From Chloroflexota bacterium (lineage in GTDB: Bacteria; Chloroflexota; Dehalococcoidia; JACQUA01): DNA of 64,000 bases. The notes under the pieces were generated by a model. It searched no databases, had not been told where the DNA came from, and saw only the letters and a program-made list of their open reading frames with translations. The translations under genes and the position numbers were made by a program. The stretch covers positions 1 through 64,000 of the forward strand of contig JACQUA010000396.1 of assembly GCA_016210565.1 (NCBI GenBank), given 5' to 3'. Position 1 is the first letter of the stretch. Every line of letters begins with the position of its first letter. This document shows positions 12,004 to 60,042 of this stretch, one piece after another.

Positions 12004-12103
12004 CCTTCTTCACTCCTCCCCGCACCTGACCTGCGATTCCCTTTTCCAGAAGCGCATCGAGGTCTTCAATGGCTTCACTCGAACAGACTACCTTCTGAGC
12101 CAT
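12004..12103 (-). pseudogene. Truncated ParE/RelE-type toxin remnant
   Basis: MAQKVVCSSEAIEDLDALLEKGIAG at the 12103 end matches the N-terminal pattern of ParE-like toxins; reading frame then runs into the antisense of the proB 3' end. Confidence 0.4.
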
Positions 12104-12276
12104 CTTGCCATTCGCTTCTCAACCTCTTCTTGTGAGTAAACCCTTCCCTCTGCCGCATCTTTCAAGCCGCGCTCGATCTTTTGAAGGACATAAAGATGAT
12201 ATTGGACATCTTCCAGCGAACAACCATTTGGTAAGCGAGCGAGAAGTCTGCTAACTTCCTCTTTTGCTGTTTCCAT
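12088..12276 (-). CDS. Small antitoxin-like protein
   Basis: 62 aa, ends AAEGRVYSQEEVEKRMARWLRR as in antitoxins paired with ParE/RelE toxins; overlaps the truncated toxin start. Confidence 0.5.
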   Translation of the reverse strand: METAKEEVSRLLARLPNGCSLEDVQYHLYVLQKIERGLKDAAEGRVYSQEEVEKRMARWLRR

Positions 12277-12448
12277 ATCTTTTCCCCTGTTGAATATGAA
12301 AAGATTATATTATTTTGAAGGTTAACATGCGGAACATGTTTTTTGAGGCGTGACGGAAAATGCGGAAACCTGGAAACACGCGGGCGGGCGTGTTGACGGT
12401 AACTCTGTTTTGTCATATCATTGACAGCCAGAGGCAAATGGGTCACCC

Positions 12449-12683
12449 ATGGTTGAAAGAATAACCGTCAATCCGTCCGACCTCGGTGCTAAACCCCGTT
12501 ATCGGGGGGACAAAAATACCTGTGGAGTTCATACTCAAACTGCGTGCCTCCGGCCTCACTGTGGGCGAAATACTTCAGGACTATTCCCATCTTGCCAAAG
12601 AAGATATCCCCGACTCCCTTGAGTACGACGCCACAGCACTGAAGAACAAAATAATAGTCGAACTTGAAGCTGCCAGCGCATGA
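12449..12683 (+). pseudogene. DUF433-family antitoxin-like gene with frameshift
   Basis: MVERITVNPSDLGAKP then, after a one-base frame change near 12496, VIGGTKIPVEFILKLRASGLTVGEILQDYSHLAKEDI (DUF433 pattern). Confidence 0.65.
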
Positions 12684-12734
12684 AATGCGCCAGCGCGCCG
12701 TGCTATGAGCAGCATTTGCATGGAGATCTGAGCC

Positions 12735-12835
12735 ATTACATGTTTGTGGGCAGCCATCCCGGACAAAGCCCTTCTGTCCCAGGCAACGAATATGGCGACG
12801 ACGTAGTGCACAAGAACAACCTGGTTGTCCTGTGA
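12735..12835 (+). pseudogene. Duplicate proB 3'-end fragment
   Basis: [28 protein letters not shown] versus intact ProB C-terminus [28 protein letters not shown]. Confidence 0.9.
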
Positions 12836-12944
12836 AAAGCCGCACCGACAAACCGCGTAGCAGTTCGAGAGGGCTCGTGAAGATGCTCACGCGATATTCC
12901 GCTGCCGCGGTGTGCGCTCACAATATTCTGTTCGGAGGTGCCAT

Positions 12945-13976
12945 ATGCTCTTCTATTTGGCAGAAGTTAACAAGACGGAGATTCAGCCCGTCAAAGGAGG
13001 CTCGCTGGCCGGGATTGGGTGGAATGAAAAGGATCTGGAGAATCTCGTGGCCGGAAACATAACGACTATCATCCCTGAAAGCCAGCTCATGGTTTTGGAT
13101 CAAGAGAAGCCGGGAAAAGAGGCGGCTGACATCTACGCACTGGATAAGAACGGAGATCTGCATATATTCGAACTGAAAAGATGGAAAGCAGACAAAGAGA
13201 ATCTGCTTCAAGTACTCAGATACGGCCAGATCTACGGGCAATATTCCTATGAGGATCTCCAAGATATGCTGAGAAAGTACGAAGGAAGCAAGGAACTTGA
13301 GCTAGCGACAAAGCACTACGAGTATTTCAGCGAATCGCTCAAGGCTAAGCTGGCAACGTCCGACTTCAACCGGGAACAGCATTTTGTCGTGGTAACGAAT
13401 GGCATTGATGCAGATACTAGAAACGCTATCAAGTATTGGCAGCACAAGGGTCTCAAAATAGAAAGCCTTATATACAGGGTCTATTCTGTTGGCGGGAAGA
13501 ATATCTTAGAGTTCAACCCCTACAATCCTGAAGGCGAAGTAATTCCTGAAGGGGAAGAGGGATATTTCGTGGTCAACACGAATCTGACGTGGAGCACGGA
13601 GGACTACAAGGACATGCTCACACAGCACAAGGCGGCCGCATGGGGAAGACCCAAGGGGGGCATCAAGCGCATCAAGAAGGGGGACACGGTTTTCCTATAC
13701 CATAATCGTGTCGGTGTGATCGCATACGGCAGAACATCGGATGATTACAAACGGACCACCCACGCTAAGAAGAAACTTGACGAGTACTTTGTGCCAGTCC
13801 AATTTGACTGGCAAGTGGACCCGGACACAGCGCCTGAAAAAGCTGTTCACGCCCGGGAAATCTATCAGAAGCTCGGAGCCCAGTACTCGTTCCATCACAC
13901 CGTGTTCTCCATTCCCGAGAAAGCGGCTAAGGGCATCATGGAATTGGCTGACACTAAGAAGGAGGGCATCGCCTAA
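12945..13976 (+). CDS. PD-(D/E)XK nuclease-like (NucS/DUF91-like) domain fused to a C-terminal EVE/PUA-like domain
   Basis: ADIYALDKNGDLHIFELKRWKADKENLLQVLRYGQIYG nuclease-like core; C-terminal YFVVNTNLTWSTEDYKDMLTQHKAAAWGRPKGGIKRIKKGDTVFLYHNRVGVIAYG resembles EVE-type domains; RBS cggagg before ATG 12945. Confidence 0.65.
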   Translation: MLFYLAEVNKTEIQPVKGGSLAGIGWNEKDLENLVAGNITTIIPESQLMVLDQEKPGKEAADIYALDKNGDLHIFELKRWKADKENLLQVLRYGQIYGQYSYEDLQDMLRKYEGSKELELATKHYEYFSESLKAKLATSDFNREQHFVVVTNGIDADTRNAIKYWQHKGLKIESLIYRVYSVGGKNILEFNPYNPEGEVIPEGEEGYFVVNTNLTWSTEDYKDMLTQHKAAAWGRPKGGIKRIKKGDTVFLYHNRVGVIAYGRTSDDYKRTTHAKKKLDEYFVPVQFDWQVDPDTAPEKAVHAREIYQKLGAQYSFHHTVFSIPEKAAKGIMELADTKKEGIA

Positions 13977-14028
13977 TATCGTTGGCCGAACATTGCTGTA
14001 GGCATGACTCACAGCGACGAGAAAGAAG

Positions 14029-14163: not shown

Positions 14164-14274
14164 CCACAGTCCTTCCCCTATCGCGACGGACGCTAGAGTT
14201 TTGGGAAGTGGCGATAGGCTTGACGTTAATCTTTCAGGCCCCATGAATGCACCCTGGGGGAAAGGCGGCCACCA

Positions 14275-14790
14275 ATGGAACAGACCAGCATGATTGTCAA
14301 TGTGGCAACGGGAGTCACGGCCTTTGCGACCGTAGGCCTGGCAATATTTGCTTTGGTGCAGTGGCAAAGCCTTCGGAAGTCGGTGGAGGAATCCGCGAAA
14401 GCGCGTTCAGCCTCAGTTCTGCTTGAGATTTACGACCTCATGCAGGACCTAAGGCCAAAATGGCACCAAGTATATGCGTATCCAGACGACTTTAAATCCT
14501 GGAACGATAGCCAACGTGCCGTGGCGGACCAGGTTGGAGCGGGACTCCAAAACATTTCTTATCTTTGCTTACAAGGCCTGCTAGATCCGCGCTATGTGAT
14601 AGACAATTGGGCGGGAACTTTCGTGAGATGCTGGAACAAGCTTGAGAAGTTCATAAAGGACTATCGTGTTCAGGCCGGTGAGCCGGCGGAACTGGAAGAA
14701 GGCGCATTTCAGCGCAAGGATTTTGAGTTGTTTGCGAAGCAATGCCAGGGATCTTACCCCGTTGAAATTTCCCCCGCGCCAACTTGGTGA
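14275..14790 (+). CDS. DUF4760-like protein with N-terminal transmembrane helix
   Basis: 171 aa; VNVATGVTAFATVGLAIFALVQWQSLRKS then LLEIYDLMQDL...ISYLCLQGLLDPRYVIDNWAGTFVRCW. Confidence 0.5.
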   Translation: MEQTSMIVNVATGVTAFATVGLAIFALVQWQSLRKSVEESAKARSASVLLEIYDLMQDLRPKWHQVYAYPDDFKSWNDSQRAVADQVGAGLQNISYLCLQGLLDPRYVIDNWAGTFVRCWNKLEKFIKDYRVQAGEPAELEEGAFQRKDFELFAKQCQGSYPVEISPAPTW

Positions 14791-14874: not shown

Positions 14875-16149
14875 ATGAACAATCGAAACGAATATCTCGA
14901 AACCAAAGCTCAGGCTGCCCGGGCGGCGGCGAAGAAGCTGGCGTTTACGCCTACGGCGGTCAAGAACCAGGCGCTGCTGAATATCGCCGAAGCCCTGACG
15001 AAAAGGCAGGACGAAATCCTTACCGCCAACCGGCAGGACTATGCCGAGGGCGAGGCAGGGGGAATGGGCGCGGCCATGCTCGACCGCCTGATGCTGAACC
15101 CGGCCCGGCTCCAGGGCATGGCGGCCGACGTGAAGACCGTCGCCGCCCTCACCGACCCGGTGGGGGAGGTGTTCGACATGAGGACGCTGCCCAACGGGCT
15201 GCAAATCGGCAAGAAGCGGGTCCCCCTGGGCGTCGTCGGCGCCATTTACGAAAGCCGCCCGAACGTGACCGTCGACATCTCTTCGCTCTGCCTCAAGTCC
15301 GGCAACGCCGTCATCCTCCGGGGCGGCAGCGAGACTATCAGGTCCAACCTGGCGCTGGTGGCCGTCGTCGTGGACGCCTGCGCAGGAGCCGGTCTTCCCG
15401 CCGGTGCGGCGCAGTTCGTAGACAATCCCGATAGGGCGCTGGTGGGCCAGTTGCTCCGCATGAGGGAATACGTCGACCTCATCATCCCGCGGGGCGGGGC
15501 CGACCTCATCCGCTTTGTGGCGGAAAACGCCCGCATGCCGGTCATCACCGGCGGGATAGGGGTCTGTCATACCTATGTCGACAAGGGCGCCGATATCCGT
15601 AAGGCGGCCGCCATCATCTATAACGCCAAGGTGCAGCGTCCGACCGTCTGCAACGCCCTGGATACCGTCCTCATCCACTCGTCTATCGCCAGCGACGGCC
15701 TCCCGCAGATCGCATCGGAGCTCGGGAAGGCCGGGGTTGAGTTGCACTGCGATGAACGTTCCCGCAGCCTGTTGACAGGCGTTCCCTCCCTGAAGGTCAC
15801 GCCCGCCACCGAGCAGGACTGGGGCAAGGAATTCCTGGCGCTCATCGCGGCTATCAAGGTGGTAGACTCCCTGGACGAGGCCATAGAACACATCGACAAA
15901 TACGGGTCAGGCCATTCCGAAGCCATCGTGACCGAGAACTATACCGCCGCCCAGCGTTTCCTGAACGAGGTGGATGCTGCCGCGGTCTACGTCAATGCCA
16001 GTACGCGCTTCACCGATGGCGGACAGTTCGGCCTGGGAGCGGAGGTCGGTATCAGCACCCAGAAGATGCACGCCCGGGGTCCTATGGGGTTGAAAGAGCT
16101 TACCAGCTACAAATGGATTATCTATGGGAATGGGCAGGTGAGGGAGTAG
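14875..16149 (+). CDS. proA: Gamma-glutamyl phosphate reductase
   Basis: [41 protein letters not shown] region, [34 protein letters not shown] C-terminus. Confidence 0.96.
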   Translation: [424 protein letters not shown]

Positions 16150-16192: not shown

Positions 16193-16402
16193 AGAGTAGG
16201 GTGGGTTAAGCGCAAAGGGGGTGGGGATTGCGGGGCGGTTGCGCGAACCCACCGGGGGCAGTAGCCAGTAGCCTCGCACCACCGCCGCCCGCCGCACCCC
16301 CGTGTCCGGCGGTCGCCAGTCGGCTACCGGCGGGGTGCGGAATCTTCAATCTGGAACATTCTGGAACAAATATCTACGCTGCCGACTCAAGAGGGGTGCG
16401 TT

Positions 16403-22460: not shown

Positions 22461-24788
22461 TCAGGAAACGGAAACCAGTACTCGGGACTTCCTATTGCCC
22501 TTCCTGGTCTTTTCGCCCTGTTTCTCTTTCCCCTTTTCCTTAAGCGCCTTCAAGATTTTTTCGGGAGTAACCGGCATTTCTTTTATCCGCACGCCGATGG
22601 CGTTATCTATGGCGTTGACCAGCGCCCCGGGGGTCGGAATGGCCAGCCCTTCGCCGGCCTCCTTGGCCCCGAAAGGGCCCTCCGGTTCATAGGTATCCAC
22701 GTTCAGGATATTGATCTTCGGCATGTCCGCGGCGCGGAACGGTTTGTAATCTCGCAAATTGCAGTTGGTTATCTTCCCGTTTTTGTGCAGGTAGTACTCG
22801 GTGAAGCCGTAGGCGCCCGACATGCAGACCGAGCCTTCCAGTTGTCCCTCGGCGCCCAGGGGATTGATCGTTGTGCCGCCGTCGTGGGCCGTGGTGGCGC
22901 TGAGCAGGGTTACCTTGCCGGTCTCAGGGTCAACCTTCACCTCCACCGCCTGGACGCCAAAACTAAAAGCGGGGGAAACCATGCCTTTGCGGTGAGGAGT
23001 ATATTCCCCCTGGCCAACGATCTGTTGGCCACCTCGGGCCCTGATGGCTTCTTTCACCACGTCAAAATAGGAGATGCCCCTTTCCGGGCGGTTGGTGATA
23101 TGAACCCAGCGGTGACTAATCTCCAGGTCATAGACTATGTTGGGACCGAGCTTACCGGCGGCGTACTCCAGCAGTTGCCGTTTGGCGTCGGCGGCCGCGG
23201 CTTTGACCGCATTGCCATTCATGAAAGTCTCCCGACTCGCCCAGGCGCCGAGGTCCGGCGGGCAGGTTGCGGTATCGCCGGTATGAAGTCTGACATCTTC
23301 GAGCTGGACTCCCAATTCCTCGGCGCAGATCATGCAGAGGGTGGTATTGGAACCCTGGCCGATCTCGTTGGCCCCGGTGAACAGGTCCACCTTGCCATCG
23401 ATACTGATCTTGACCGTGGCTGCGCCGAAGGCATAGGGGGTGTCGAACCAGTTGAAAATGCCGCCGGAGTTGAACCCGTAGCCAGCCACGCCGATGCCGT
23501 GGTTGGGTGGCAATTGACCTTTGTCCTTGACGAACTTGTCTATCTTGTCAATACATTGTGGTATGCCGCAACTCTGGATAAAGGCCTGATCGGGGATCAC
23601 CGAGTTGGGGGTCATTGCGTTCTTGCGCCTCAGTTCCATCGGGTCTATCCCCAGGTCGCGGGCCATCAGGTCCATCTGGGACTCGGTCACGAAGCACGCC
23701 TGCGGCGCACCGAACCCGCGAAGCGCGGATGATGGAAGCATGTTGGTGTAGACGCGGTAGCCGTCATATCTATAGGCCGGGTATTTATATGGAAAGAAGG
23801 AGTAGAACCCGGTGACGTACAGCGTGGTAGCGCCCATGGAAGTGTAGGCCCCGCCGTCCGTGACGGCGCGGACTTCCCGGGCGAGGATGGTGCCGTCTTT
23901 CTTCGCCCCCAACCTGCTAATGTAGTACATCGGCGTGCGACGCCTGGTGGCGGTGAAAACTTCCTCGCGGCTGAAGACGATCTTCACCGGCTGACGCAGC
24001 TTCTGTGAGAGCAGGGAAGCGATGAACTGGCCGGAGTCGAGCTCCATCTTACCGCCGAATCCGCCTCCAACATGCGGTTTGATCACCCGGACGTCGCCCT
24101 CCTTAATGCCCAGCATCTCAGCCAGCAGCACCTGGACAAAGTAGTTAGACTGGGTCGAGGTCCATATGGTCAGCTTCCCATCGTAGCCGAAACTGGCCAC
24201 CGTGTTGTGCGGCTCCATGCATACATGGGCCATAGACGTGCAGTAGAAACTATCTTCCCGGATATGGTCGCACTGCTTGAAACCTTCGTCAACGTCACCC
24301 CACTCGATGTGCCGGGTGACATTGATGTTCAGGTCAACCCCGTCATGGACGCAGGGGGCGTCTTCCTTGATGGCCTCCATCGGGTCGAACACGGCCTTCA
24401 AAGGCTCGTACTCCACTTTGATCAGTTTCAGGGCCTCCTCGGCGGTGTCCTCGTCAACGGCGGCAACGGCCGCCACGGCATCCCCGATGAAGCGGACTTT
24501 GTCACGGCACAAGATCGGCTCGTCGCACAACTCCGGGAACCGCCGCCAGTTCCCCATCTTTTTGCCTATGGTATCCTTGCCGGTCACCACCAGCTTGACT
24601 CCCGGCAAGGCCTCTGCGCCGCTGGTATCGACGTGGAGAATCCTGGCGTGAGGGTGTGGGCTCCTGAGAATCTTGGCCCACAACATATTGGGCAGGGTGA
24701 TGTCCACAGTGTATTTGGCTGAGCCAGTGGCTTTTTCAAAGCCATCTATATTCGGCAGTCTTTTACCGATTACTGAATAGACGCTCAA
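22461..24788 (-). CDS. Xanthine dehydrogenase family, molybdopterin-binding large subunit (copy 1)
   Basis: 775 aa; GSAKYTVDITLPNMLWAKILRSPHPHARI, PHVGGGFGGKMELDSGQFIA, GQGSNTTLCMICAEELG, GPFGAKEAGEG. Confidence 0.93.
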   Translation of the reverse strand: MSVYSVIGKRLPNIDGFEKATGSAKYTVDITLPNMLWAKILRSPHPHARILHVDTSGAEALPGVKLVVTGKDTIGKKMGNWRRFPELCDEPILCRDKVRFIGDAVAAVAAVDEDTAEEALKLIKVEYEPLKAVFDPMEAIKEDAPCVHDGVDLNINVTRHIEWGDVDEGFKQCDHIREDSFYCTSMAHVCMEPHNTVASFGYDGKLTIWTSTQSNYFVQVLLAEMLGIKEGDVRVIKPHVGGGFGGKMELDSGQFIASLLSQKLRQPVKIVFSREEVFTATRRRTPMYYISRLGAKKDGTILAREVRAVTDGGAYTSMGATTLYVTGFYSFFPYKYPAYRYDGYRVYTNMLPSSALRGFGAPQACFVTESQMDLMARDLGIDPMELRRKNAMTPNSVIPDQAFIQSCGIPQCIDKIDKFVKDKGQLPPNHGIGVAGYGFNSGGIFNWFDTPYAFGAATVKISIDGKVDLFTGANEIGQGSNTTLCMICAEELGVQLEDVRLHTGDTATCPPDLGAWASRETFMNGNAVKAAAADAKRQLLEYAAGKLGPNIVYDLEISHRWVHITNRPERGISYFDVVKEAIRARGGQQIVGQGEYTPHRKGMVSPAFSFGVQAVEVKVDPETGKVTLLSATTAHDGGTTINPLGAEGQLEGSVCMSGAYGFTEYYLHKNGKITNCNLRDYKPFRAADMPKINILNVDTYEPEGPFGAKEAGEGLAIPTPGALVNAIDNAIGVRIKEMPVTPEKILKALKEKGKEKQGEKTRKGNRKSRVLVSVS

Positions 24789-25080
24789 CGGTGCTCCTTA
24801 ACGGGGATTTTCCCGGGCCATCGCCCTGGTGGGACGCGGGCAGCAAAGGCTCAGGGACGTTCGAGTTCGCAACGCTTATGATACAACCACCGCGAGGTCA
24901 AAAGCAAGCCAAAGTCGCCTGTGCGCCCGGCCCGGTCAGGGCGCAACCCCACCACCGGGGCTCACGGGCACAGTGGCCAGCCTGTCTCAGAAACCGGTCG
25001 AACGGGCATCTTGCCCGCTCCTTCATCTTGCCCGTTTGTTCACCGAAGGTGCAAGCCACAGGACCGGGGCAACGCGGCCC

Positions 25081-25332
25081 TCACAATTGTACTTCCTGGA
25101 TTTCATGCGTTTCGCGGTATTCACCCCTGGTTTCTCTTTCCAACAAACCGGACAGGGCGGCATAACCTTCCCCCCCGAAGGACTTCATCTGGGCGCGGAG
25201 AAGGTCCGAGAACCTGAATCCTTTTGAAGCCAGCCAGTCCCTGTGGACCTTATCTCCACGGCCCATGATGTGCCGGGCCAGGTCTGTCGCCGTCGGCGAA
25301 ACCTTGATGCACGCGGGGCAACGATAGCTCAT
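25081..25332 (-). CDS. Small C2H2-like zinc-finger protein (copy 2)
   Basis: 83 aa; MSYRCPACIKVSPTATDLARHIMGRGDKVHRDWLASKG; paralogue of 22192-22446. Confidence 0.65.
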   Translation of the reverse strand: MSYRCPACIKVSPTATDLARHIMGRGDKVHRDWLASKGFRFSDLLRAQMKSFGGEGYAALSGLLERETRGEYRETHEIQEVQL

Positions 25333-25335
25333 CGT

Positions 25336-27624
25336 TTACCTCCTGGCTGTTGTCGATCCTTTTTCTTCTTTGTGTTTAATGGCATTAAGCACCTTTTCAG
25401 GCGTTATGGGCAGGTCCGTTATCCTTACTCCGACCGCTTTGGCGATGGCATTTCCGATGGCCCCGGCGGTAGGAGTGGTAAGTCCTTCCCCGGCTTCTTT
25501 GGCTCCGAACGGACCCTCCGGCTCCCAGGTATCGACTACCAGAATCTCTGTTTCCGGCATGTCGAGGGCGCGGATCAGTTTATAGTCGCCGATAGACGGA
25601 TTGAGGAGCTTGCCGTTGTCCATGGGCTGGTCTTCGCAGAAGCCGTAGCCCCCGGCCATGCTTATGGCTCCCTCTAGCTGACCGTCGCATCCGACCGGAT
25701 TGATGACGGTGCCGCTATCATGAGAGGTGACAGCATTAAGGAGCTTGACCTTCCCTGTTTCCGGGTCAACCGAGACCTCGACGGCCTGGACGCCGAAACT
25801 GTAGGCGGGTGAGATCATGCCTTTGCGGTGCGGGGTGTAGTGCCCGCGACCCATGATGGCCTGGCCCTCCTTGCCCCTGATGGCATCCTTGACTACATCG
25901 AAATAGGATAGGCCGCGCTCCGGACGGTTAGCGATATGGATCCAGCGGTCCTTGATATCAAGATCATATACAATGTTCGACCCCATCTTGGCAGCCGCAA
26001 CTTCCAGAAGCTGGCGTTTGGCCTCAGCCGCCGCCATCTTGACCGCATTTCCGTTCATCAGGGTTTCCCTGCTGGCCCAGGCGCCGAGGTCCGGAGGGCA
26101 GGTCCCGGTATCTGCGGCGATGATCCTGACGTCCTCCAGGCGCACACCGAGCTCCTCGGCGCAAATCATGCTCAAGGTTGTGTTTGATCCCTGGCCGATA
26201 TCGCAAGCGCCGGTGTAGAGATCAACCTTGCCGTCAATGTTGATACGGACGATGGCCGCGGAGAAGGCATACGGCGTGTCAAACCAGTTGAAGATACCTC
26301 CCGAAACAAAGCCATAGGCCGACAGGCCGATGCCATGATTGGGAGGCAACTGCCCACGCCTCTTGACGTATCGTTCGATTTCCCCCAGACACTGGAGCAC
26401 CCCGCAGCTTTGTATGTAAGCCTGGCCGGGGACCTCGTAGTTGGGCGTCATCATGTTCAGGCGTCTGATGGCGACCGGGTCAATCCCCAGGTCTTCCGCT
26501 ATCATATCGAGCTGGGACTCCATGACGAAGGTAGCCTGGGGGGCGCCAAAGCCACGCATGGCGGACGTGGGCGCGGTGTTCGTGTAGGCGCGGTAGCCAT
26601 CATAGCGATAGTTCGGAAACCTGTAGGGGAATGATGAAAAGAATCCCGTCAGGTACAGTGTGGTGGGACCCATGGAAGTATAGGCGCCGCCTTCCGTGAT
26701 GACTCGGACTTCCTTGGCCAGGAGAGCGCCGTCCCTGCTGGCGCCGAGTTTGACATTGTAGTACATTGGAGTGCGCCGCTTGGTGGCGGTGAATTCCTCT
26801 TCGCGGGTAAGCACGATCTTCACCGGCCTCCCCAGCTTCATGGACAGCAAGCCCGAGCAGAACTGGGTAGAATCGAGTTCGAACTTGGACCCCCAGCCAC
26901 CCCCGACGTGAGGCTTGATAACCCGCACGTCGCTCTCCCTCAGGCCAAGCATCCCGGCCATCAGCGCTTGAGTGTAGTAGGAGGATTGGGTAGCCGCATA
27001 CACCGTCATCTTGCCATCGGGTCCAAAGCTGGATACGGTGTTATGGGTCTCCATGCACACGTGCGCCTGCGGCGAGCAATAGAATCTATCCTCCCGCACG
27101 TGGTCACAGCGTTTGAATGCCTCATCAACATCGCCCCATTCAATGTGACGCGTCGCATTGATATTGAGGTCGACTCCATCATGTATAACGGGGGCATCCT
27201 CTTTGATAGCCTCCATGGGGTCAAACACGGCCTTCAGCGGCTCATATTCCACTTCAATGAGGTCCAGCGCTTCTTCGGCAGTGTCTTCATCAATGGCGGC
27301 TACCGCGGCTACCGGGTCGCCGATGTAGCGGACTTTGGTGCGACAGAGGATTTCTTCGTCACAGAACTCAGGAAAGCGCCGCCAGATGCCGGTCTTACGT
27401 CCCAGCGTGTCCTTGCCGGTAACCACACCCTTTACCCCGGCCAGCCTCTCAGCCTTACTGGTATCGATATCGAGGATCTTGGCGTGGGGGTGCGGGCTTC
27501 GCAGTACCCTGGCCCAAAGCATGTTGGGCAGGGTAACATCAAAAGTGAATTTCGCGGCGCCCGTCACCTTCTCCGGTCCGTCTACATTGCGAACTCTGGT
27601 ACCAATAACCGAGAATTTGCTCAT
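25336..27624 (-). CDS. Xanthine dehydrogenase family, molybdopterin-binding large subunit (copy 2)
   Basis: 762 aa; PHVGGGWGSKFELDSTQF, GQGSNTTLSMICAEELG; strongly similar along full length to copy 1. Confidence 0.93.
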   Translation of the reverse strand: MSKFSVIGTRVRNVDGPEKVTGAAKFTFDVTLPNMLWARVLRSPHPHAKILDIDTSKAERLAGVKGVVTGKDTLGRKTGIWRRFPEFCDEEILCRTKVRYIGDPVAAVAAIDEDTAEEALDLIEVEYEPLKAVFDPMEAIKEDAPVIHDGVDLNINATRHIEWGDVDEAFKRCDHVREDRFYCSPQAHVCMETHNTVSSFGPDGKMTVYAATQSSYYTQALMAGMLGLRESDVRVIKPHVGGGWGSKFELDSTQFCSGLLSMKLGRPVKIVLTREEEFTATKRRTPMYYNVKLGASRDGALLAKEVRVITEGGAYTSMGPTTLYLTGFFSSFPYRFPNYRYDGYRAYTNTAPTSAMRGFGAPQATFVMESQLDMIAEDLGIDPVAIRRLNMMTPNYEVPGQAYIQSCGVLQCLGEIERYVKRRGQLPPNHGIGLSAYGFVSGGIFNWFDTPYAFSAAIVRINIDGKVDLYTGACDIGQGSNTTLSMICAEELGVRLEDVRIIAADTGTCPPDLGAWASRETLMNGNAVKMAAAEAKRQLLEVAAAKMGSNIVYDLDIKDRWIHIANRPERGLSYFDVVKDAIRGKEGQAIMGRGHYTPHRKGMISPAYSFGVQAVEVSVDPETGKVKLLNAVTSHDSGTVINPVGCDGQLEGAISMAGGYGFCEDQPMDNGKLLNPSIGDYKLIRALDMPETEILVVDTWEPEGPFGAKEAGEGLTTPTAGAIGNAIAKAVGVRITDLPITPEKVLNAIKHKEEKGSTTARR

Positions 27625-39001: not shown

Positions 39002-39110
39002 AGTGCCACAGGCGTCTCGCCTGTAAAAGCCGGATTGCCTCGGGCCCCGGTACCACAGGCCTCCGTGCCCGTCACGAAGCCCCGGTACCACAGGCCTCCG
39101 TGCCTGTGCG
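39002..39110. repeat. REP-like GGTACCACAGGCCNCCGTGCCTGTG palindromes, three copies
   Basis: gccacaggcgtctcgcctgt, ggtaccacaggcctccgtgcccgt, ggtaccacaggcctccgtgcctgtg. Confidence 0.85.
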
Positions 39111-39465
39111 AGTCGGATATCAACCAGAGTCGAGTCCGCCTGTCAAGCCGCCTTGGCTACAGGGGATCCCGTCTGACGGTCAAACAGAGGATACCAGAAG
39201 GCCAATTGACAAGTCATAAAATCGCACAAGGAAAGATTAAATATTTGTGACATCGCCCTTCGCGACGACCCCGCGTACTCTGCGTCCGCCGCGCCTCTGC
39301 CGTGAGACAACTTCATTCGTTGGTTCACCATCCGGCATCGTGCATCAGCCGGGCGGGGTTGTAGCCGCAGGTCTTTAGCCTGCGGGGGCGGGGAAACGCG
39401 ACCGGGACTTTCCTCTGCGTCCTCCGCGCCTCTGCGGTGAGACGCTATCGTTGCCCGTGTCGCTA

Positions 39466-40116
39466 TCAGTCGCCCAGCCCCGCCGCCTGCCGGGCCACAT
39501 CCCAGCAGTAGTCATAGAGATGCAGTCCCTTGCTGGAAGCGATGATCTCCCCATCCTCCACACCAATTTCGCAGGCCATGAACTCTTTCAGCATCTGCAA
39601 TCCCGCCAGATTCGAGGGGAAACCCGCCCAGAGGTCCCAGGAACGGAAATAGATGATGAAGTTCAGTTTCCCGTAGCGAATGCGTGTGTCGATTCCCCTG
39701 AGGCAGGGCGGGTCGGAAAGACCGATAGAAGCGGCGCTGCCGATGGCCATGTACGCCTGGTTGGTATTGGGCCCCTGCTCCCGGTACATCTTGATGACCT
39801 CTGGAATCTGCTTCTCCAGGTCTTCCCCGTAGGTATATTGCTCGTTGTCCGCCTTCAAAGAGGTCATCAAGTACGACATGTAGTTTTCAACGTAGTCCAT
39901 GGAGGCGGGGCTGGGGATGCCCGGCTTGACGTCCGGTATCAGCGGCCGCCGGCCCGGGTGTTCTATTTGCACCACCGCCATATCCAGCTCCTTTCGCTGG
40001 TGCCCCTCCCAGCTTCCCCGGTCGATAACGTACTGGTAGCCTTTCTCCAGCGTCTTCCGTATGCACAGGAACCACGCCTCGGGCAAGTCCCTGGCCTTGA
40101 TGAAAGTTATGTCCAT
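39466..40116 (-). CDS. Thymidylate synthase-like protein (archaeal-type pattern)
   Basis: 216 aa; DPPCL candidate catalytic Cys, IIYFRSWDLWAGFPSNLAGLQMLKEFMACEIGVEDGEIIASSKGLHLYDY. Confidence 0.6.
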   Translation of the reverse strand: MDITFIKARDLPEAWFLCIRKTLEKGYQYVIDRGSWEGHQRKELDMAVVQIEHPGRRPLIPDVKPGIPSPASMDYVENYMSYLMTSLKADNEQYTYGEDLEKQIPEVIKMYREQGPNTNQAYMAIGSAASIGLSDPPCLRGIDTRIRYGKLNFIIYFRSWDLWAGFPSNLAGLQMLKEFMACEIGVEDGEIIASSKGLHLYDYCWDVARQAAGLGD

Positions 40117-43459: not shown

Positions 43460-43730
43460 CCGTGCCGCACTTTCACGTCGACTTGGACCGATGGAGTCCT
43501 CACATTCAGGACGGAGTCGCGTTGTCGCAACCGTCCCGGGTTGCTGAGGAAAATCGGCCCGACGGCGTGGTGACGCCCAGCCGGAATGGTTCGCGGCGTC
43601 ACCAGACGGAGGACGGGTGTGGGGCAACAGTTACCTTCGCTCCCACCCCAGTGGGCTAGCTCACGCTATGGCAACGGGGCATGGACAAGGACAATGCTAT
43701 CTGGTATCAGAACAACAACGGAGGTCCTAA

Positions 43731-44205
43731 TGCCTGCAGAAGATCTACGGCAATGGTTGGACAAGGTAGACAAGATCGGTGAGCTGCGCACGATTGACAA
43801 TGCCAGTTGGAAGCTGGAAATCGGGGCCATCACCACCGTCAACTAGAAGCGGTCTCCGTGCCGCGCCCTGCCCTTCGACCACATACCCGACTATCCCTCC
43901 GGCTACCGTGTGCTTACTTCTTCCCTGTCCTCCCCCGGCCGGCTTGGACTTGCCCTGGGCCTATCGCCCAGGCTTTCCAAGAGGGAACTCATCCAGGAGG
44001 TCCGGCAAGAATGGCTGGAATGGGACAAGAGCCAGTCAAAATACGGGATCACCCCGGTAAGCAGCGGATCCGTCCTGGAAAACGTGATGTCCGGCGACAG
44101 CGTCGATCTAAACCGTTTCCCGTCCCCCTGTGGCACGAAGAAGACGGGGGACGCTACATCGCCACCGGCAGCGCGGTGGTGACGCAGGACCCCGACACGG
44201 GCGCC
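43731..44205 (+). pseudogene. Truncated, disrupted ubiD 5' fragment
   Basis: MPAEDLRQWLDKVDKIGELRTIDNASWKLEIGAITTVN* parallels the intact UbiD start at 48900; TGG to TAG nonsense, later 1-nt deletion, homology stops at gacacgggcgcc (about 44205). Confidence 0.93.
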
Positions 44206-44375
44206 CGCCGGCCCGGGTGTTCTATTTGCACCACCGCCATGTCCAACTCCTTTCGCTGGTGCCCCTCCCAACTCCCCCGGTCGATGACATACTGGCAGCC
44301 TTTTTCCAAGGTTTTCCGCAGGCACAGGAACCACGCCTCGGGCAAATCCCTGGCCTTAATGAAAGTTATGTCCAT
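44205..44375 (-). pseudogene. TS-like 5' fragment
   Basis: MDITFIKARDLPEAWFLCLRKTLEKGCQYVIDRGSWEGHQRKELDMAVVQIEHPGRR matches the N-terminus of the 39466-40116 product. Confidence 0.93.
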
Positions 44376-44637
44376 AGTTAAATCGTATCCTTCTCCGGTA
44401 GTGGGGTAATTATAACACGGCGAATTGATTTCCAACGTCCGAACACTCTCCTGCCCGTCTCCCGGTCCGCGCAGCGCTGAAAACCAGCTCAGGATAATGT
44501 CGCCGGGCCAATTTCCGGTTCCGACGGCACGTTCCGAGGGATTGTGCTACCTTCAATCGCTATGTATAATGAGTGTAGGCGCAAGGCGAACGCGAGAATG
44601 CAGTTCATCCTTGCGGCACAGAGAGCAGAAGAAAACC

Positions 44638-44847
44638 ATGAACGAGCGGATTATCATAGACCCAGACATACAGCACGGGAAACCTGTTATCAGTGGAACG
44701 AGGGTTCCCGTTACACGCATTATCGGTGGACTTGCAGGCGGCATGACAAAAGAAGAAGTCATGCATGAATACGAGGTGGATGTGGAAGATATTCGAGCCG
44801 CTTTTGTCCATGCTGAGGAATCCCTCAGGATCGAACCTCTGAAATAG
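44638..44847 (+). CDS. DUF433 family protein (putative antitoxin)
   Basis: 69 aa; IIIDPDIQHGKPVISGTRVPVTRIIGGLAGGMTKEEVMHEYEVDVEDIRAAF. Confidence 0.85.
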   Translation: MNERIIIDPDIQHGKPVISGTRVPVTRIIGGLAGGMTKEEVMHEYEVDVEDIRAAFVHAEESLRIEPLK

Positions 44848-45135: not shown

Positions 45136-45297
45136 AATGTCCCAAAAGATGGAAGAAAGGTTGAGCGTGCCAAAGGCAATGCGGCACCCGAAAGCGCTTC
45201 TGGCGGCCTGGCGGTGGCCGCTGATACGCCTTGCAGTTCCCCTATCGGTGAATTCCGGAGCAGGAACATACAAGCCGGCGTGAACCCAGGAAGCTCA

Positions 45298-46257
45298 ATG
45301 GGCGTTAATCTCGACAAGCCACATCTCTGGAAGGCAGACATAGCCCGCTCCGTTGACATGTATAACGACTGGTTCATGAAATTCGCTCCGAAGGCCTTTC
45401 GGGACACCCGCGTTCAGACGGCAAAGGATGTCGAGGCAACGTTAAAGATAACAGACAACCTCACTGAGGTCACTCCGTCCGTTCTGCGGCGAAACCCTGC
45501 GGTGCTGCCAACCCTCCGCATGTCCACGTGTCCACCCCTTGCCGTTGACCGGCTCATCGGCCTTGCGGGTGTAAGCGCCAGTCTCGTCAAGACGATGGAA
45601 AACAACCAGAAGATACCGGTGCGGCTCGAGGCAGCAACCCTCGACACGGACCTTCGAAAGATAGGGTCTATCATCGAGCGAATGGCGGACCCGGACATTT
45701 TCGTCTGGCTAAACCGGGACGAGCCACCCACAAAAACAGAAATACGACGCGCCGCGACCATAGTAGCCGACCGTCTTTGCGGCTCTGTAGCCAACCCAAT
45801 AATCCGAAATGCTCAGGAGAAGCGCCAATTGGCGGCGATAAAAGCCTGGCTTGAAGCCAGACGGCACCACGCACTTCCGCCAGGAGACCACACCAAATTC
45901 GATGCCCTGCGCCCGGGTGCTTTTGCCTTCCACATGAACGTTCCGGTGAGACTCGGAGGCGGCAAGCGCATCAACGTACCGGTTGACGCTGCCGTCATGC
46001 CGAAGACAGCCAGGGTGGGCGACCTTCCGGTTTTATTCGAAGCCAAGTCGGCGGGCGACTTTACCAACGTCAATAAGCGGCGCAAGGAGGAAGCTACGAA
46101 GATGGCCCAACTCCGTCGTACCTATGGCGCCAACATCCAGTTCAATCTATTCCTGTGCGGATACTTCAATAGCGGATACCTCGGTTATGAAGCGGCTGAG
46201 GGCATTGATTGGGTGTGGGAACACCGAATCGGTGATCTTGCCCAATTCGGTTTGTGA
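45298..46257 (+). CDS. XamI-family type II restriction endonuclease
   Basis: 319 aa; NLDKPHLWKADIARSVDMYNDWFMKFAPKAFRDTR; LPVLFEAKSAGDFTNVNKRRKEEATKM catalytic-type region; overlaps the R-M methylase operon. Confidence 0.8.
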   Translation: MGVNLDKPHLWKADIARSVDMYNDWFMKFAPKAFRDTRVQTAKDVEATLKITDNLTEVTPSVLRRNPAVLPTLRMSTCPPLAVDRLIGLAGVSASLVKTMENNQKIPVRLEAATLDTDLRKIGSIIERMADPDIFVWLNRDEPPTKTEIRRAATIVADRLCGSVANPIIRNAQEKRQLAAIKAWLEARRHHALPPGDHTKFDALRPGAFAFHMNVPVRLGGGKRINVPVDAAVMPKTARVGDLPVLFEAKSAGDFTNVNKRRKEEATKMAQLRRTYGANIQFNLFLCGYFNSGYLGYEAAEGIDWVWEHRIGDLAQFGL

Positions 46258-46258
46258 G

Positions 46259-47839
46259 ATGATGAAAGAATCGACTCAAGAACGGGCTCGCGTGTCCCTC
46301 CAGGCACACCTGGATGCCAAGAAAACCCAGCCTGAACGAAATCGCCTCGGCCAATTCGCTACCCCGACAGCACTTGCCAGCGATATCTTGCGTTTCGGCT
46401 TGGGCCTCCTCGGGGAAGACGTTCCCATCCGATTTCTCGATCCTGCCATCGGAACCGGATCTTTTTTTTCTGCCCTCGTTGCGGCTGTGCCGGCAGATAG
46501 AATCGAAATGGCGAAAGGATATGAGGTAGACGCCCTCTATACAGAACCCGCCCGCGAGCTGTGGCGTGGCACGTCGCTGGACATCGTGTTAGGGGACTTC
46601 ACACGCGCCGTCCCGCCCCCAGACCACGCAAATCGCTTCAACCTGCTGATCTGCAATCCTCCCTATGTCCGTCATCACCATATCGGGAACGGCGAGAAGT
46701 CCCGGTTGCAGGAGTCCACCAAGACCGCGTGCGGGGTCCGTATCTCGGGCCTTGCCGGCCTGTATTGCTACTTCCTCGGCCTGTCTCATGCCTGGCTGCG
46801 ACAGGGCGGAGTCGCCGGGTGGCTCATCCCCAGTGAGTTTATGGACGTGAATTATGGGGGGCCTGTCAAGAGATACCTCCTGGACAAAGTGACGCTCCTT
46901 CGCATTCACCGGTTTGATCCTGGCGACGTGCAATTTGACAATGCCCTTGTGTCTTCGGCCATCGTCTGGTTTCGCAATGACCCTCCCCGCGAATCCCATA
47001 GTGTTGAATTCACGTTCGGTGGGTCGCTTCTTTCACCAAAGCTTTGTCGCACCATTCCCGCCGGGGCGCTCCGCCACGAAGCCAAGTGGACGCGATTCCC
47101 TGCTTCGGACATTCGCCAGGGCACTACCCTCCATCGCCTCTCGGACCTTTTCACAATCAAGCGTGGTGTCGCCACGGGAGATAACAAGTTCTTTATCCTC
47201 ACGAAAGAAGAGGCCGCGGCCCACGGCCTGCCCGTTGAGGTTCTGCGCCCAATCCTGCCCAGCCCGCGCTACGTCCCCACGAACAAAATTGAATCCGATC
47301 CCCACGGACTGCCGGTGATCGACCGTCAATTGTTTCTGCTGGACTGCCGCCTGGCGGAGACGGAGGTTTGCGAGCGGTACCCGGAGCTCTGGAAATACCT
47401 TGAAAGCGGCAAACCAGACGTTTCGGCACGGTACCTCTGCCGCTCCCGGAAGCCCTGGTATTCCCAGGAAGAGCGCTCCCCCGCACCTATCCTTTGTACT
47501 TACCTGGGGCGGGCCGATGCTAAGAACGGGCGTCCCTTCCGCTTCATCCTGAACCATTCCAGGGCCATCGCAGCCAATGTCTACTTACTTCTGTACCCGA
47601 AACCGGCTCTTGCCAGGGCCATCGCCCAAGATGGTCTGCTACTGCGGCAAATTTGGGAAGGCTTGAACGGGCTGCGCCCGGATTCCATACTGGGAGAGGG
47701 TCGCGTCTATGGCGGCGGCCTTCACAAGCTTGAACCGCGAGAATTGGGGAACGTAGATGCGGCGCCTATTCTGAGCAGCATTCCCGAGCTGCAAGACCAG
47801 AAAACCGCCAGTGTTCAGTTGCAACTTCAATTGAGGTAG
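46259..47839 (+). CDS. N6-adenine DNA methyltransferase (XamI-methylase/Eco57I-like)
   Basis: 526 aa; RNRLGQFATPTALASDIL, FLDPAIGTGSFFSAL, NLLICNPPYVRHHHI (NPPY); starts 1 nt after the endonuclease stop. Confidence 0.9.
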   Translation: MMKESTQERARVSLQAHLDAKKTQPERNRLGQFATPTALASDILRFGLGLLGEDVPIRFLDPAIGTGSFFSALVAAVPADRIEMAKGYEVDALYTEPARELWRGTSLDIVLGDFTRAVPPPDHANRFNLLICNPPYVRHHHIGNGEKSRLQESTKTACGVRISGLAGLYCYFLGLSHAWLRQGGVAGWLIPSEFMDVNYGGPVKRYLLDKVTLLRIHRFDPGDVQFDNALVSSAIVWFRNDPPRESHSVEFTFGGSLLSPKLCRTIPAGALRHEAKWTRFPASDIRQGTTLHRLSDLFTIKRGVATGDNKFFILTKEEAAAHGLPVEVLRPILPSPRYVPTNKIESDPHGLPVIDRQLFLLDCRLAETEVCERYPELWKYLESGKPDVSARYLCRSRKPWYSQEERSPAPILCTYLGRADAKNGRPFRFILNHSRAIAANVYLLLYPKPALARAIAQDGLLLRQIWEGLNGLRPDSILGEGRVYGGGLHKLEPRELGNVDAAPILSSIPELQDQKTASVQLQLQLR

Positions 47840-48312: not shown

Positions 48313-48810
48313 ATGGCCACCGGAAGAAGCATGCAACTTACTAAACAAGTCGGTGAATATTTGGTTTGCGCGGAGTTATGTAGAAGAGGCTTGATTTCAA
48401 CGACTTTTACAGGAAACGTACCTGGCTTTGATATATTGGCAACTAAGGAAAACCTACAGACAACACCTATCCAGGTAAAAACAATTTCGGGACCCTCTTG
48501 GCAGTTTGATGCAACAAAGTTTTTGGATATTGAAATATCAGATAATATTCAGACTGTGCGAGGTAAGACCGAAGTTAACCCGGGTCTTATATATCTGCTG
48601 GTGAGCCTAAAGGGGCAGAACACAGATGAATTCTATATTTGCAAGGTCAAGGACCTTCAAAATATGATGCACCAAAAGTACACTGCTATGTTGGCCAGAA
48701 AAGAAGGTAAAAGACCCAAGAATCCAAAAACGACCCATTTTGCTCTATCTCCGAACGATTTGAAAAAACACAAGGACAAGTGGGAAATAATAACCAAAGG
48801 CACGGCTTGA
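48313..48810 (+). CDS. PD-(D/E)XK nuclease-like protein
   Basis: 165 aa; QVGEYLVCAELCRRGLISTTFTGNVPGFDILATKENLQTTPIQVKT (E...GFDI...QVK); notably AT-rich relative to neighbours. Confidence 0.6.
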   Translation: MATGRSMQLTKQVGEYLVCAELCRRGLISTTFTGNVPGFDILATKENLQTTPIQVKTISGPSWQFDATKFLDIEISDNIQTVRGKTEVNPGLIYLLVSLKGQNTDEFYICKVKDLQNMMHQKYTAMLARKEGKRPKNPKTTHFALSPNDLKKHKDKWEIITKGTA

Positions 48811-48899: not shown

Positions 48900-50330
48900 A
48901 TGCCAGCAGAGGACTTAAGACAATGGCTTGACAAGGTAGACCAAATCGGTGAACTGCGCACGATTGACAACGCCCATTGGAAGCTGGAAATCGGGGCTAT
49001 CACCACCATCAACTGGAGACGCTCGCCCTGCCGCGCCCTGCTCTTCGACCACATACCCGGCTATCCCTCCGGCTACCGTGTGCTCACTTCTTCCCTGTCC
49101 TCCCCCGGCCGGCTTGGACTTGCCCTGGGCCTATCGCCCAGGCTTTCCAAAAGGGAACTCATCCAGGAGGTCCGGCAAAGATGGGCCGAATGGGACAAGA
49201 CCCAATCAAAATACGGAATCACGCCCGTCAAGAGCGGCCCGGTCCTGGAGAACGTCATGTCCGGCAACGGCGTGGACCTGGAGCGCTTTCCCGTCCCCTT
49301 GTGGCACGAAGAAGACGGGGGACGCTACATCGCCACCGGCAGCGCCGTGGTGACTCAGGACCCCGACACGGGCGCCACCAACATCGGCACCTACCGCGCC
49401 ATGCTTCACGATAAAAAGACCGTGTCCTACCATATCTCCATGGGTAAACACGCCAGGCTCCACCTGGACAAGTACCACGCGGCGGGAAAGCCCTGCCCCA
49501 TGGCCATTTCCGTCGGGCATCACCCCCTGTTCATGATCGCCGGTTCCCTGCCGCTGCCAGTGGGGGCCGAGTACAATCTGATCGGGGCCATCCGCGGCGA
49601 GGGGGTCGGGGTAATCAAGGAAGAAGTCACCGGCCTGCCGGTCCCGGCGGACAGTGAGATCGTCCTAGCCGGGTTCAGCCCGCCCGGCCGGCTGGAAAAG
49701 GAAGGCCCGTTCGGGGAATGGGTGGGCTACTACGTCAGCGGGGCGCAGGACCGCCCGGTCCTGGAAGTCGAGCGCGTCTATTTCCGCAACTCGCCCGTTA
49801 TTTATGGAGCACCACCCGGACGTTCCCCAAGCGACGCCAGCTACCAGCAGTTCGTGCTCCGCGCCGCCCTGCTGCACAATCAACTGGAGCAGTGCGGCGT
49901 GCCGGACATCCGGGGTGTCTGGCTGAACGAAGCGGGAGGCAGGGAATTCGTCATCGTCTCCATAAAGCAGCGGTACGCCGGGCACGCCAAACAAACAGCG
50001 ACTCTGGCTTCCCAGCTTGCCATGGGGGGCGGCTTCATGGGACGGTGGACCGTGGTGGTCGACGAAGATATCGATCCCACGGACACGAATGATGTGCTCT
50101 GGGCCATGTGTACGCGGGTGGACCCGGTGAAGGACATCGACATCATCCGGCGCTGCTGGAGCAGCTCCGTCGACCCCATCATTCACCAGCCGAGCAAGTC
50201 AGCCTTCAACTCCCGGGCCATCGTGGACGCCTGCAAGCCCTTCGAATGGATGAACGAGTTCCCACCCGCGGTGAAGGTGAGCGAGGAACTGACGCGGGAA
50301 GTCGAGGCAAAGTGGGGGAGATTGCTGTAG
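48900..50330 (+). CDS. UbiD family decarboxylase
   Basis: 476 aa; GTYRAMLHDKKTVSYHISMGKHARLHLDKYHAAGKPCPMAISVGHHPLFMIAGS, GEWVGYYVSGAQDRPVLEVERVYFRNSPVIYG. Confidence 0.93.
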   Translation: MPAEDLRQWLDKVDQIGELRTIDNAHWKLEIGAITTINWRRSPCRALLFDHIPGYPSGYRVLTSSLSSPGRLGLALGLSPRLSKRELIQEVRQRWAEWDKTQSKYGITPVKSGPVLENVMSGNGVDLERFPVPLWHEEDGGRYIATGSAVVTQDPDTGATNIGTYRAMLHDKKTVSYHISMGKHARLHLDKYHAAGKPCPMAISVGHHPLFMIAGSLPLPVGAEYNLIGAIRGEGVGVIKEEVTGLPVPADSEIVLAGFSPPGRLEKEGPFGEWVGYYVSGAQDRPVLEVERVYFRNSPVIYGAPPGRSPSDASYQQFVLRAALLHNQLEQCGVPDIRGVWLNEAGGREFVIVSIKQRYAGHAKQTATLASQLAMGGGFMGRWTVVVDEDIDPTDTNDVLWAMCTRVDPVKDIDIIRRCWSSSVDPIIHQPSKSAFNSRAIVDACKPFEWMNEFPPAVKVSEELTREVEAKWGRLL

Positions 50331-50467
50331 GAAGAATTCAGAGTGCGGGACCACGAAACACACGAAAGGCACGAAAGGGGGAGAAGAGAAGCCAGAATTC
50401 AGAAGTCAGAATTCAGGAGTCAGGAATCCTGACCGATGGGGAACCACCGAACAAACGAAGAGGCTGT

Positions 50468-50526
50468 GGTGGGTTCGCACAGCCACGCCACCCCCCAACC
50501 CACCGGCTGTGCTTAACCCACCCTAC
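50468..50526. repeat. Dispersed GTAGGGTGGGTTAAGC repeat (inverted orientation)
   Basis: ggtgggttcgcacagccacgcc...ggctgtgcttaacccaccctac. Confidence 0.85.
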
Positions 50527-50600
50527 GTCGGCTGATTAATCCTGTCACCCTTTCGTGTGTGATTCGTGTCTTTCGTGGTTAAGATTCCGTTTCGCCCGGC

Positions 50601-57769: not shown

Positions 57770-57771
57770 TT

Positions 57772-57901
57772 GGTACCACAGGCCACCGTGCCTGTGAGAG
57801 GCAGGATTACACCAGCCGGTACCACAGGCCACCGTGCCTGTGAGAGACGGATTACACCAGCCGGTACCACAGGCCACCGTGCCTGTGAGAGGCAGGATTA
57901 C
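57772..57901. repeat. Tandem array of three REP-like palindromic units (about 45 bp)
   Basis: ggtaccacaggccaccgtgcctgtgagag(g)caggattacaccagcc, starts at 57772, 57818, 57863, between purB and purC. Confidence 0.95.
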
Positions 57902-57951
57902 AGATTGCAGATTACAGATTGCAGATTACGCATTAGAGACCAGGAACCTTC

Positions 57952-58854: not shown

Positions 58855-58905
58855 TAGCCAGTAGCCAGTAGCGAGTAGTGAGTAGTGAGTAGTGAGTAGT
58901 GAGCA
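58853..58905. repeat. Short tandem repeat (AGTAGTG / AGTAGCC units)
   Basis: agtagccagtagccagtagcgagtagtgagtagtgagtagtgagtagtgagcag at the purC stop. Confidence 0.9.
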
Positions 58906-59082
58906 GTCAGCAATCGCCGGCTATCGGCCATCAGCTATCGGCTTGGGGGCAATCTTCAACGCTTGAAATCGTAATCTGTCATCTGCAATCTGCAATCTTC
59001 CCCCGGGTTCTTCTGGATGCTGGATTCTGGATTCTGAATTCTGTATTCTATCTCCGGTATTCTTTCATCGAGGTAAAACGCA

Positions 59083-59334
59083 ATGTTCCTGGCCAAAGTT
59101 CACGTTACCCTCAAGCCCACGGTTAACGACCCCCAGGGTCTTACTATCAAAGGCGCCCTGCAAACCCTGGGTTTCGATAAGGTCAAGAGCGTCCGCGCCG
59201 GCAAATACATGGAAATTCAGATAGACGAGCCGGACCGCGCCAGGGCCGAAGAGATGGTCAAGGAGATGTGCCGCAAACTCCTGGCCAACCCGGTGATTGA
59301 GAACTTCAAATACGAGCTCGAAAAGAAGGAGTAA
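59083..59334 (+). CDS. purS: Phosphoribosylformylglycinamidine synthase subunit PurS
   Basis: 83 aa; FLAKVHVTLKPTVNDPQGLTIKGALQTLGFDKVKSVRAGKYMEIQIDEPDRARAEEMVKEMCRKLLANPVIENFKYEL. Confidence 0.94.
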   Translation: MFLAKVHVTLKPTVNDPQGLTIKGALQTLGFDKVKSVRAGKYMEIQIDEPDRARAEEMVKEMCRKLLANPVIENFKYELEKKE

Positions 59335-59355
59335 ACAGTCCTTACCAGACAGACG

Positions 59356-59568
59356 CTAAAGGTCTTCAGGTTTCAGAGCGGTCACTTTGGCAATACGGGA
59401 CAACATGCGGGGGCCAAGCTCTTCCTTTTCATGAAATGCAAACACAACATCAGACCAACTCCGGCGTGAAAGAACCCTGTGCGAGCCGCTCTGGCGCTTG
59501 ACGCTCCACCCAATGCGCAGCAATGCGGAGAGTACGCGCTCCGCCTTTGCCGACCGCCATTCGCTCAT
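59356..59568 (-). CDS. HicA-type toxin
   Basis: 70 aa; LLRIGWSVKRQSGSHRVLSR...FHEKEELGPRMLSRIAKVTALKPEDL. Confidence 0.8.
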   Translation of the reverse strand: MSEWRSAKAERVLSALLRIGWSVKRQSGSHRVLSRRSWSDVVFAFHEKEELGPRMLSRIAKVTALKPEDL

Positions 59569-59771
59569 ACGGCAGCAAAGGAAATGCTTAGTGGGCTGAG
59601 CGAATTCTCCCCGTGCTCCAGGCGGTCCGCAAGCACACGCAATGCCAGGGCCTGCACTCTGGCGATCGCCTCTTCAGCACTCCTCCCGTAGGTCAGCACG
59701 CCTGGCAGCTCCAGCACTTCGGCCAGCCAGCGACCATCTTCCTCTCGCTCATTTTCTATGGTAAACTTCAT
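59565..59771 (-). CDS. HicB-type antitoxin
   Basis: MKFTIENEREEDGRWLAEVLELPGVLTYGRSAEEAIARVQALALRVLADRLE; overlaps HicA start by 4 nt. Confidence 0.8.
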   Translation of the reverse strand: MKFTIENEREEDGRWLAEVLELPGVLTYGRSAEEAIARVQALALRVLADRLEHGENSLSPLSISFAAV

Positions 59772-59896
59772 TCGTAAATTATCCATTTTCGAGACCCCAT
59801 TATAGCCTGAGCCGACTTAGTCACTTAAAATTATAGCATACTGGGGACCATTTTGACCCACGACATCGGTCATGAGTTCCGACAAGCTAAGAAACC

Positions 59897-60042
59897 CCCG
59901 CGGTGGCAAATACATGGAAATTCAAATCGATGAACCAGACCGCGCCAAAGCCGAAGAGATGGTCAAGGAAATGTGCCGCAAACTCTTGGCCAACCCCGTG
60001 ATTGAAAATTATACGTTTGAATTGGTGAATTCAAAAGGCTAG
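59897..60042 (+). pseudogene. Duplicate purS 3'-end fragment
   Basis: GKYMEIQIDEPDRAKAEEMVKEMCRKLLANPVIENYTFELVNSKG* versus intact PurS tail GKYMEIQIDEPDRARAEEMVKEMCRKLLANPVIENFKYELEKKE*. Confidence 0.93.

Follow-up and report, generated by a model that had tools for sequence, protein, structure and literature searches.

We examined a 64,000-nt window (positions 1-64000 of the 71,297-bp contig C335 of a Dehalococcoidia metagenome bin) in which three core loci, proB, purS and the divergent thymidylate synthase (TS)/ubiD pair, each carry a toxin-antitoxin (TA) or defence cassette and, beyond it, a truncated, in-register second copy of a core-gene end. The source genome (G000) is a 6.53-Mb bin of 419 contigs, 94% complete and with 6.4% contamination; the nearest relative used for comparison, from another genus of the same family, matches the Dehalococcoidia bin JAUYHV01 via its TS, and its ProB is ~70% identical. 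An initial annotation of the window had claimed three duplicated core-gene ends, and self-comparison (blastn) followed by alignment recovered all of them, with E values of 4e-12 to 4e-176, far past chance. Domains were called with Pfam profiles and defence genes with PADLOC. At the proB locus, where the second tail lies at 12746-12835 and not, as first placed, at 12735-12835, the features are as follows:

10897-12003, plus strand: intact proB, glutamate 5-kinase, 368 aa, 70% identical to ProB of the same-family genome
12004-12276, minus strand: cassette A, small antitoxin-like open reading frame (ORF) of 62 aa (12088-12276), no Pfam match, read as TA by inspection
12486-12683, plus strand: cassette A, antitoxin-type DUF433 gene (PF04255, E=2.9e-13)
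12746-12835, plus strand: truncated second proB 3' end, 81% identical over 80 bp (dS 0.78, dN/dS 0.16)
12945-13976, plus strand: cassette B, candidate defence protein (PADLOC PDC-S11, E=3.8e-25)
14275-14790, plus strand: cassette B, DUF4760 gene (PF15956, E=1e-8)
14875-16149, plus strand: intact proA, directly beside proB in other families

The proB tail copy comprises the last 28-29 codons of the gene, and its homology ends exactly at the TGA stop. In several other families (these are not sister strains) proB lies side by side with proA or almost so, while here 2.9 kb lies between them. The start of a ParE/RelE-like toxin gene (12004-12103, minus strand) stops after ~23 codons at the proB end, and the antitoxin next to it looks solitary. 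The purS locus follows the same plan:

59083-59334, plus strand: intact purS, 83 aa
59356-59786, minus strand: HicAB cassette, with HicA at 59356-59568 (PF07927, E=5.1e-10) and a HicB-like gene at 59565-59786, assigned by position and sequence only
about 59897-60042, plus strand: truncated second purS 3' end, 88% identical over 111 bp (dN/dS 0.05)
60412-61050, plus strand: cassette B, nuclease-like ORF after the purS fragment, no family match (Pfam, PADLOC)

Here the tail copy is the last half of purS, and 3.4 kb intervene between purS and hisB, which abut in a genome of another family (G026). The initial annotation had proposed comparing sister genomes with and without the cassettes; in other families, both the proB-proA and the purS-hisB junctions lack the insert. 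By reading, the genome G018, also of another family, carries a CopG-like antitoxin and a MazF-like toxin, a MazEF-like pair, after its purS (L073, ~3370-3879), which makes this stretch behind purS a repeatedly used TA site. The third locus is the most elaborate:

39466-40116, minus strand: intact thymidylate synthase, ThyA-like, 216 aa
40441-43459, plus strand: cassette 1, with an ORF without assignment, a nucleoside 2-deoxyribosyltransferase-like gene and a CapP-like gene of the Peptidase_M78 family (capP E=8e-29; PF06114 E=8.5e-12)
43727-44205, plus strand: truncated, decayed ubiD 5' copy of ~158 codons, 88% identical over 490 bp (dN/dS 0.18)
44201-44378, minus strand: truncated TS 5' copy, 91% identical over 178 bp (dN/dS 0.04)
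44638-44847, plus strand: cassette 2, DUF433 gene (PF04255, E=2.8e-18)
45214-46257, plus strand: cassette 2, XamI-type restriction endonuclease (PF09572, E=9.6e-121)
46259-47839, plus strand: cassette 2, type II methyltransferase partner of XamI (MTase_II, E=1.3e-143)
48313-48810, plus strand: cassette 2, ORF without Pfam or PADLOC match
48900-50330, plus strand: intact ubiD-family decarboxylase, 476 aa

The ubiD 5' copy carries an internal TAG and a frameshift, and the TS 5' copy is fused to it head-on at 44201-44205, with an overlap of ~1 bp. The order along the locus is therefore leftward TS, cassette 1, rightward ubiD fragment, leftward TS fragment, cassette 2 and rightward ubiD, with the intact TS and ubiD genes divergent. 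The joining of ubiD and TS 5' fragments at about 44205, as originally described, holds, but the accompanying view of a single pair that had been split fits less well than a tandem junction of two whole alleles, both of them versions of the same divergent pair. UbiD-family decarboxylases are greatly multiplied in this genome, with 39 matches, as they are in the same-family relative (33 matches), and most other families of the class have none.

The topology common to all loci is that the left part of one allele is joined to the right part of another, and at the window loci, as at those of the survey described below, a core-gene segment is doubled in direct orientation around the insert. Repeat lengths vary between 50 and 490 bp, and the fragment tails cover 26-155 codons. 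No integrase, transposase, tRNA or Rfam RNA accompanies the window cassettes in Pfam, PADLOC and RNA scans, in agreement with the absence of integrase, transposase and tRNA reported at the outset.

We estimated substitution rates by the Nei-Gojobori method on seven intact/fragment pairs totalling 441 codons, four of them in the window and three elsewhere in the same genome. The pooled values are dS 0.445 for synonymous and dN 0.061 for nonsynonymous sites, giving dN/dS 0.137 (bootstrap 0.095-0.195, maximum 0.25), against at least about 0.5 expected under neutrality for a copy broken at birth. The differences between copies are thus largely synonymous, as had been claimed, and the ratio lies far below the neutral value, so the copies diverged as working orthologues and are not recent internal duplicates, a second claim that the same evidence bears out. 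In a two-phase model with within-gene omega fixed at 0.03-0.1, 66-100% of the divergence is older than the truncation. dS is homogeneous over the loci (chi-square p=0.18), as expected if the donors stood at a similar distance. Long-lived full-length paralogues that were truncated only lately would also be compatible with the dN/dS values, but this seems unlikely, requiring as it does that second copies of proB, purS and TS each survived independently until a recent truncation.

These rates also bear on an explanation in which a TA or restriction-modification (R-M) module inserts with a long target duplication, or the segment is duplicated in tandem within the genome, and the broken copy then diverges. 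Its attraction is that variable direct repeats of 50-490 bp match the signature reported for R-M insertions (Nobusato et al. 2000; Furuta et al. 2010; as described in PMC3031569 and PMC3874152), which share with our loci an addictive module, long variable target repeats and the lack of a transposase. At the same time, a copy broken at birth should show dN/dS of at least about 0.5, well above the observed 0.137 and its bootstrap maximum of 0.25, and the six differences between two alcohol dehydrogenase (ADH) fragments at a further locus (L217, below) are all synonymous. Compared with those insertions, the present loci differ in that the copies diverged as orthologues before truncation, in mostly TA cargo and in several units per gene. 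We consider this explanation improbable.

The arrangement is not confined to the window. We surveyed 1.47 Mb of the source genome by checking, for each called gene, whether a terminal, truncated copy lay no more than 12 kb away, a procedure chosen over DNA self-match and crude-ORF scans, which yielded many paralogues and shadow-frame matches. Twelve core genes (one of them weak, E=0.008) have a terminal fragment ordered as for insertion-duplication, and the contrast classes of the same scan hold two cases in reverse order, three internal matches and two inverted ones. In contig C5 a VapBC pair lies before the fragment of an AAA ATPase gene, with remnants of another VapBC beyond it; HigBA lies between a DNA methylase gene and its fragment (C388), and a PIN pair between a MeaB-like GTPase gene and its fragment (C337). 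In C170, HicAB and a Phd/PIN pair lie between ComM-like fragments, and fragments also accompany a thiolase-like gene (C28) and a relative of UbiD (C116). A stack in C40 belongs to an MBL-fold RNase-like gene that is accompanied by three 5' fragments in succession: HEPN/MNT separates the gene from the nearest fragment, and the two older fragments lie further out with other cassettes between them. Directly after these two old, diverged fragments stand identical 112-bp segments (3950-4062 and 6430-6542), an identity which suggests that copying took place recently inside the stack. A role of this exact repeat as the end of a mobile element was considered and set aside, there being only two copies in the genome. 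We likewise dropped a kinase-tail pair in C5 as a cassette, since it looks like a working paralogue.

Examples were also found in two other Dehalococcoidia families (G018 and G027), so that a search for gene-tail bracketing beyond the window, as had been suggested, finds it recurring with TA or defence cargo in the source genome and in both of these. In one G018 contig (C33) the tail of an Eco57I-type R-M gene recurs in successive copies after the gene, with HicAB, HicAB and DUF433/DUF5615 in the intervals. In another (C29, locus L217) the order is ADH 5' fragment, HicAB, ADH 5' fragment, DUF433/DUF5615 and full ADH; the fragments are 17-21 codons long, and the synonymous nature of their six differences was established by reading. 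Downstream of purE in G027 come a CopG-like gene, a copy of the purE tail (87%) and a TmtA-like defence gene. No such fragments occur in the 157 kb scanned of G008 or the 140 kb scanned of G013. For a sample chosen independently of the repeats, we took eight HicA loci across the class, picked by family score only, and set them against length-matched random windows. Four of the eight have flanking direct repeats (48 bp or longer, 80% identity or higher), as against 11 of 667 random windows (1.6%; p=5e-6); two of the four are ends of protein genes. Outside C335, two of 12 PIN, HicA or DUF433 genes fall in bracketed spans that cover 0.73% of the surveyed DNA (p=0.003).

Recurrence across bins matters for the possibility that a metagenome assembly merged two related strains. 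A bin of 419 contigs with 6.4% contamination makes such an artefact conceivable, but the junctions share no k-mer (~1 bp overlap), the fragments are decayed (stop codon, frameshift), ProB, TS and PurC are single-copy in the genome apart from the fragments, and the architecture is repeated in independent bins of other families. Taken together, these points make an artefact very improbable.

The borders of the fragments narrow the choice of mechanism. Inner borders vary even within one stack, fragments of one gene stopping at different points, and they have no common motif, which disfavours an attachment site. Serial islands built by a recombinase at core-gene ends, the recombinases having since been lost, have a documented counterpart in the same class, where tandem stacks at the Dehalococcoides ssrA gene are delimited by copies of one gene end (PMC3146451). 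Those islands, however, depend on the DsiB serine recombinase, a fixed 20-bp repeat and an RNA gene, whereas the repeats described here are 50-490 bp long and lie in protein genes, at 5' or 3' ends, with differing inner borders, and no cassette examined, in the window or at the survey loci, encodes a recombinase. We regard such an origin as quite improbable. Each fragment has one non-homologous junction, so that an illegitimate end-joining step is required. The route free of integrases and driven by homology that had first been envisaged is accordingly upheld in lacking a recombinase, but homology alone is an incomplete description of it.

One homologous and one illegitimate junction are also the hallmark of homology-facilitated illegitimate recombination (HFIR) of linear donor DNA, in which one end recombines in the core gene and the other is joined illegitimately, with no circle formed. 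It would likewise leave a one-sided arrangement whose copies are orthologues that have diverged, and a study of the Helicobacter pylori PabI locus describes a duplication of 1577 bp in which one junction is homologous and the other is not (PMC4615327). HFIR is reported, however, with deletions about as large as the insertions and with 3-10 bp of microhomology (PMC3240628), while duplication is the rule here and the one readable joint has ~1 bp. A single crossover of circularised linear DNA shares this pair of junctions and leaves a direct repeat (PMC3240628); it is tentatively favoured over HFIR because it yields the topology without further assumptions, and we think HFIR rather unlikely. Both processes are known from experiments with introduced DNA, whereas the present loci would represent a natural, recurrent route, with duplication in place of deletion. 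At the 44205 junction no host sequence need have been lost, as a single crossover expects.

The observations to be accommodated are the topology, the synonymous divergence, the TA and defence cargo, the stacking, the variable lengths, the near-blunt junction and the uninterrupted sites in relatives, and together they point to a recombinase-free piling-up of modules whose own addictiveness may lock them in place. On balance we lean towards the view that the fenced cassettes arose by one-sided homologous recombination between ~88% identical orthologous versions of one spot bearing different cassettes, through a circularised single crossover followed by an addiction lock. Linear DNA from a related strain would bring a core-gene end together with its neighbouring cassette; the piece would be circularised by end joining, and one RecA crossover within the core-gene end common to both would insert the entire circle. 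For E. coli, linear DNA is reported to be either degraded or circularised and integrated by a single crossover (PMC3240628). The outcome would be an intact gene, a second copy cut short where the circle had been ligated, and the cassettes of both lineages in tandem. That the incoming piece completed or replaced the host's gene end, as the initial annotation inferred, is one possibility, since either copy may be the host's. Inserts between direct repeats would normally loop out, but TA or R-M cargo would make the loss lethal, so that the addictive cassettes would be those that remain, perhaps accounting for the bias of the cargo towards TA and defence genes. Repeated rounds could then build stacks in which gene ends alternate with TA modules. 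Both cassettes could be retained through the kind of selection reported for chromosomal R-M systems, which resist allelic replacement (PMC3874152, citing Handa 2001 and Sadykov 2003); this resistance was shown for R-M systems in laboratory strains, and its extension to TA stacks is our own proposal. ComEC is present in G000, G018 and G027. Ku was considered as a common cause of the joining and dropped, since G018 has stacks without it; classical non-homologous end joining is therefore not the general joining step.

Several observations weigh against this crossover-and-lock account. The 44205 junction is the only one at which both parents are visible, and all comparison genomes are from beyond the genus, the nearest being ~70% identical in ProB. 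Ku occurs in G000 and G027 and is missing from stack-bearing G018. Some bracketed inserts have no TA genes, namely those at the C5 kinase tail (171-bp gap), a multicopper oxidase gene in G027 (C48) and C28, and the copies in C116 and G027 C48 run past the stop codon, which means that fragment ends are not always gene borders. The repeats at the four HicA loci, finally, include a tRNA end and a short repeat without assignment.

A broader proposal, which we offer only tentatively, is that addiction modules in Dehalococcoidia may travel without a recombinase, each taking along part of the neighbouring core gene as its private homology arm, which would set the landing place; addiction would bar the reverse crossover, and ordered stacks would accumulate at core-gene ends. 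Related phenomena are known, and the combination found here is a variant of them. In the 80-species survey of Oliveira et al. (2017), half of the hotspots had no recognised mobile elements (PMC5635113), and these integrase-free hotspots resemble our loci in having accessory genes beside core genes, no mobile elements and core-gene homology; their model, however, is a clean double-crossover exchange, whereas here both alleles are retained one after the other, separated by broken core-gene copies. Among the open-access literature found, no precedent joins orthologous diverged gene ends, TA cargo, the lack of a recombinase and stacking, though an earlier description is possible.

The arrangement bears on the question by what route TA and defence genes reach chromosomal sites without integrases and build up there. 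The gene-end fragments are a record of past events that preserves donor sequence and relative ages, and they allow a sequence-based test of whether addiction selects duplicative over replacing recombination. If it does, TA modules would act to bias the growth of genomes, which might be part of the reason why this genome measures 6.5 Mb (most sampled relatives in the class have 1.2-3 Mb). The private-homology-arm proposal, if true, would amount to a general route for the growth of TA and defence islands without a mobile element.

Other repeats in the window are of different kinds. Positions 22461-27624 hold two tandem genes for xanthine-dehydrogenase-family molybdopterin subunits (775 and 762 aa), whose DNA, together with adjoining sequence, is ~69% identical; this pair represents ordinary tandem paralogues. 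A dispersed element of ~62 bp, its copies mostly 82-87% identical and in both orientations, occurs at 5034-5099, 16196-16258, 34335-34396 and 50467-50527. Short, partly tandem intergenic repeats of the type GGTACCACAGGC...GCCTGTG are found at 57770-57902, 3040-3070, 36273-36301 and 39043-39118.

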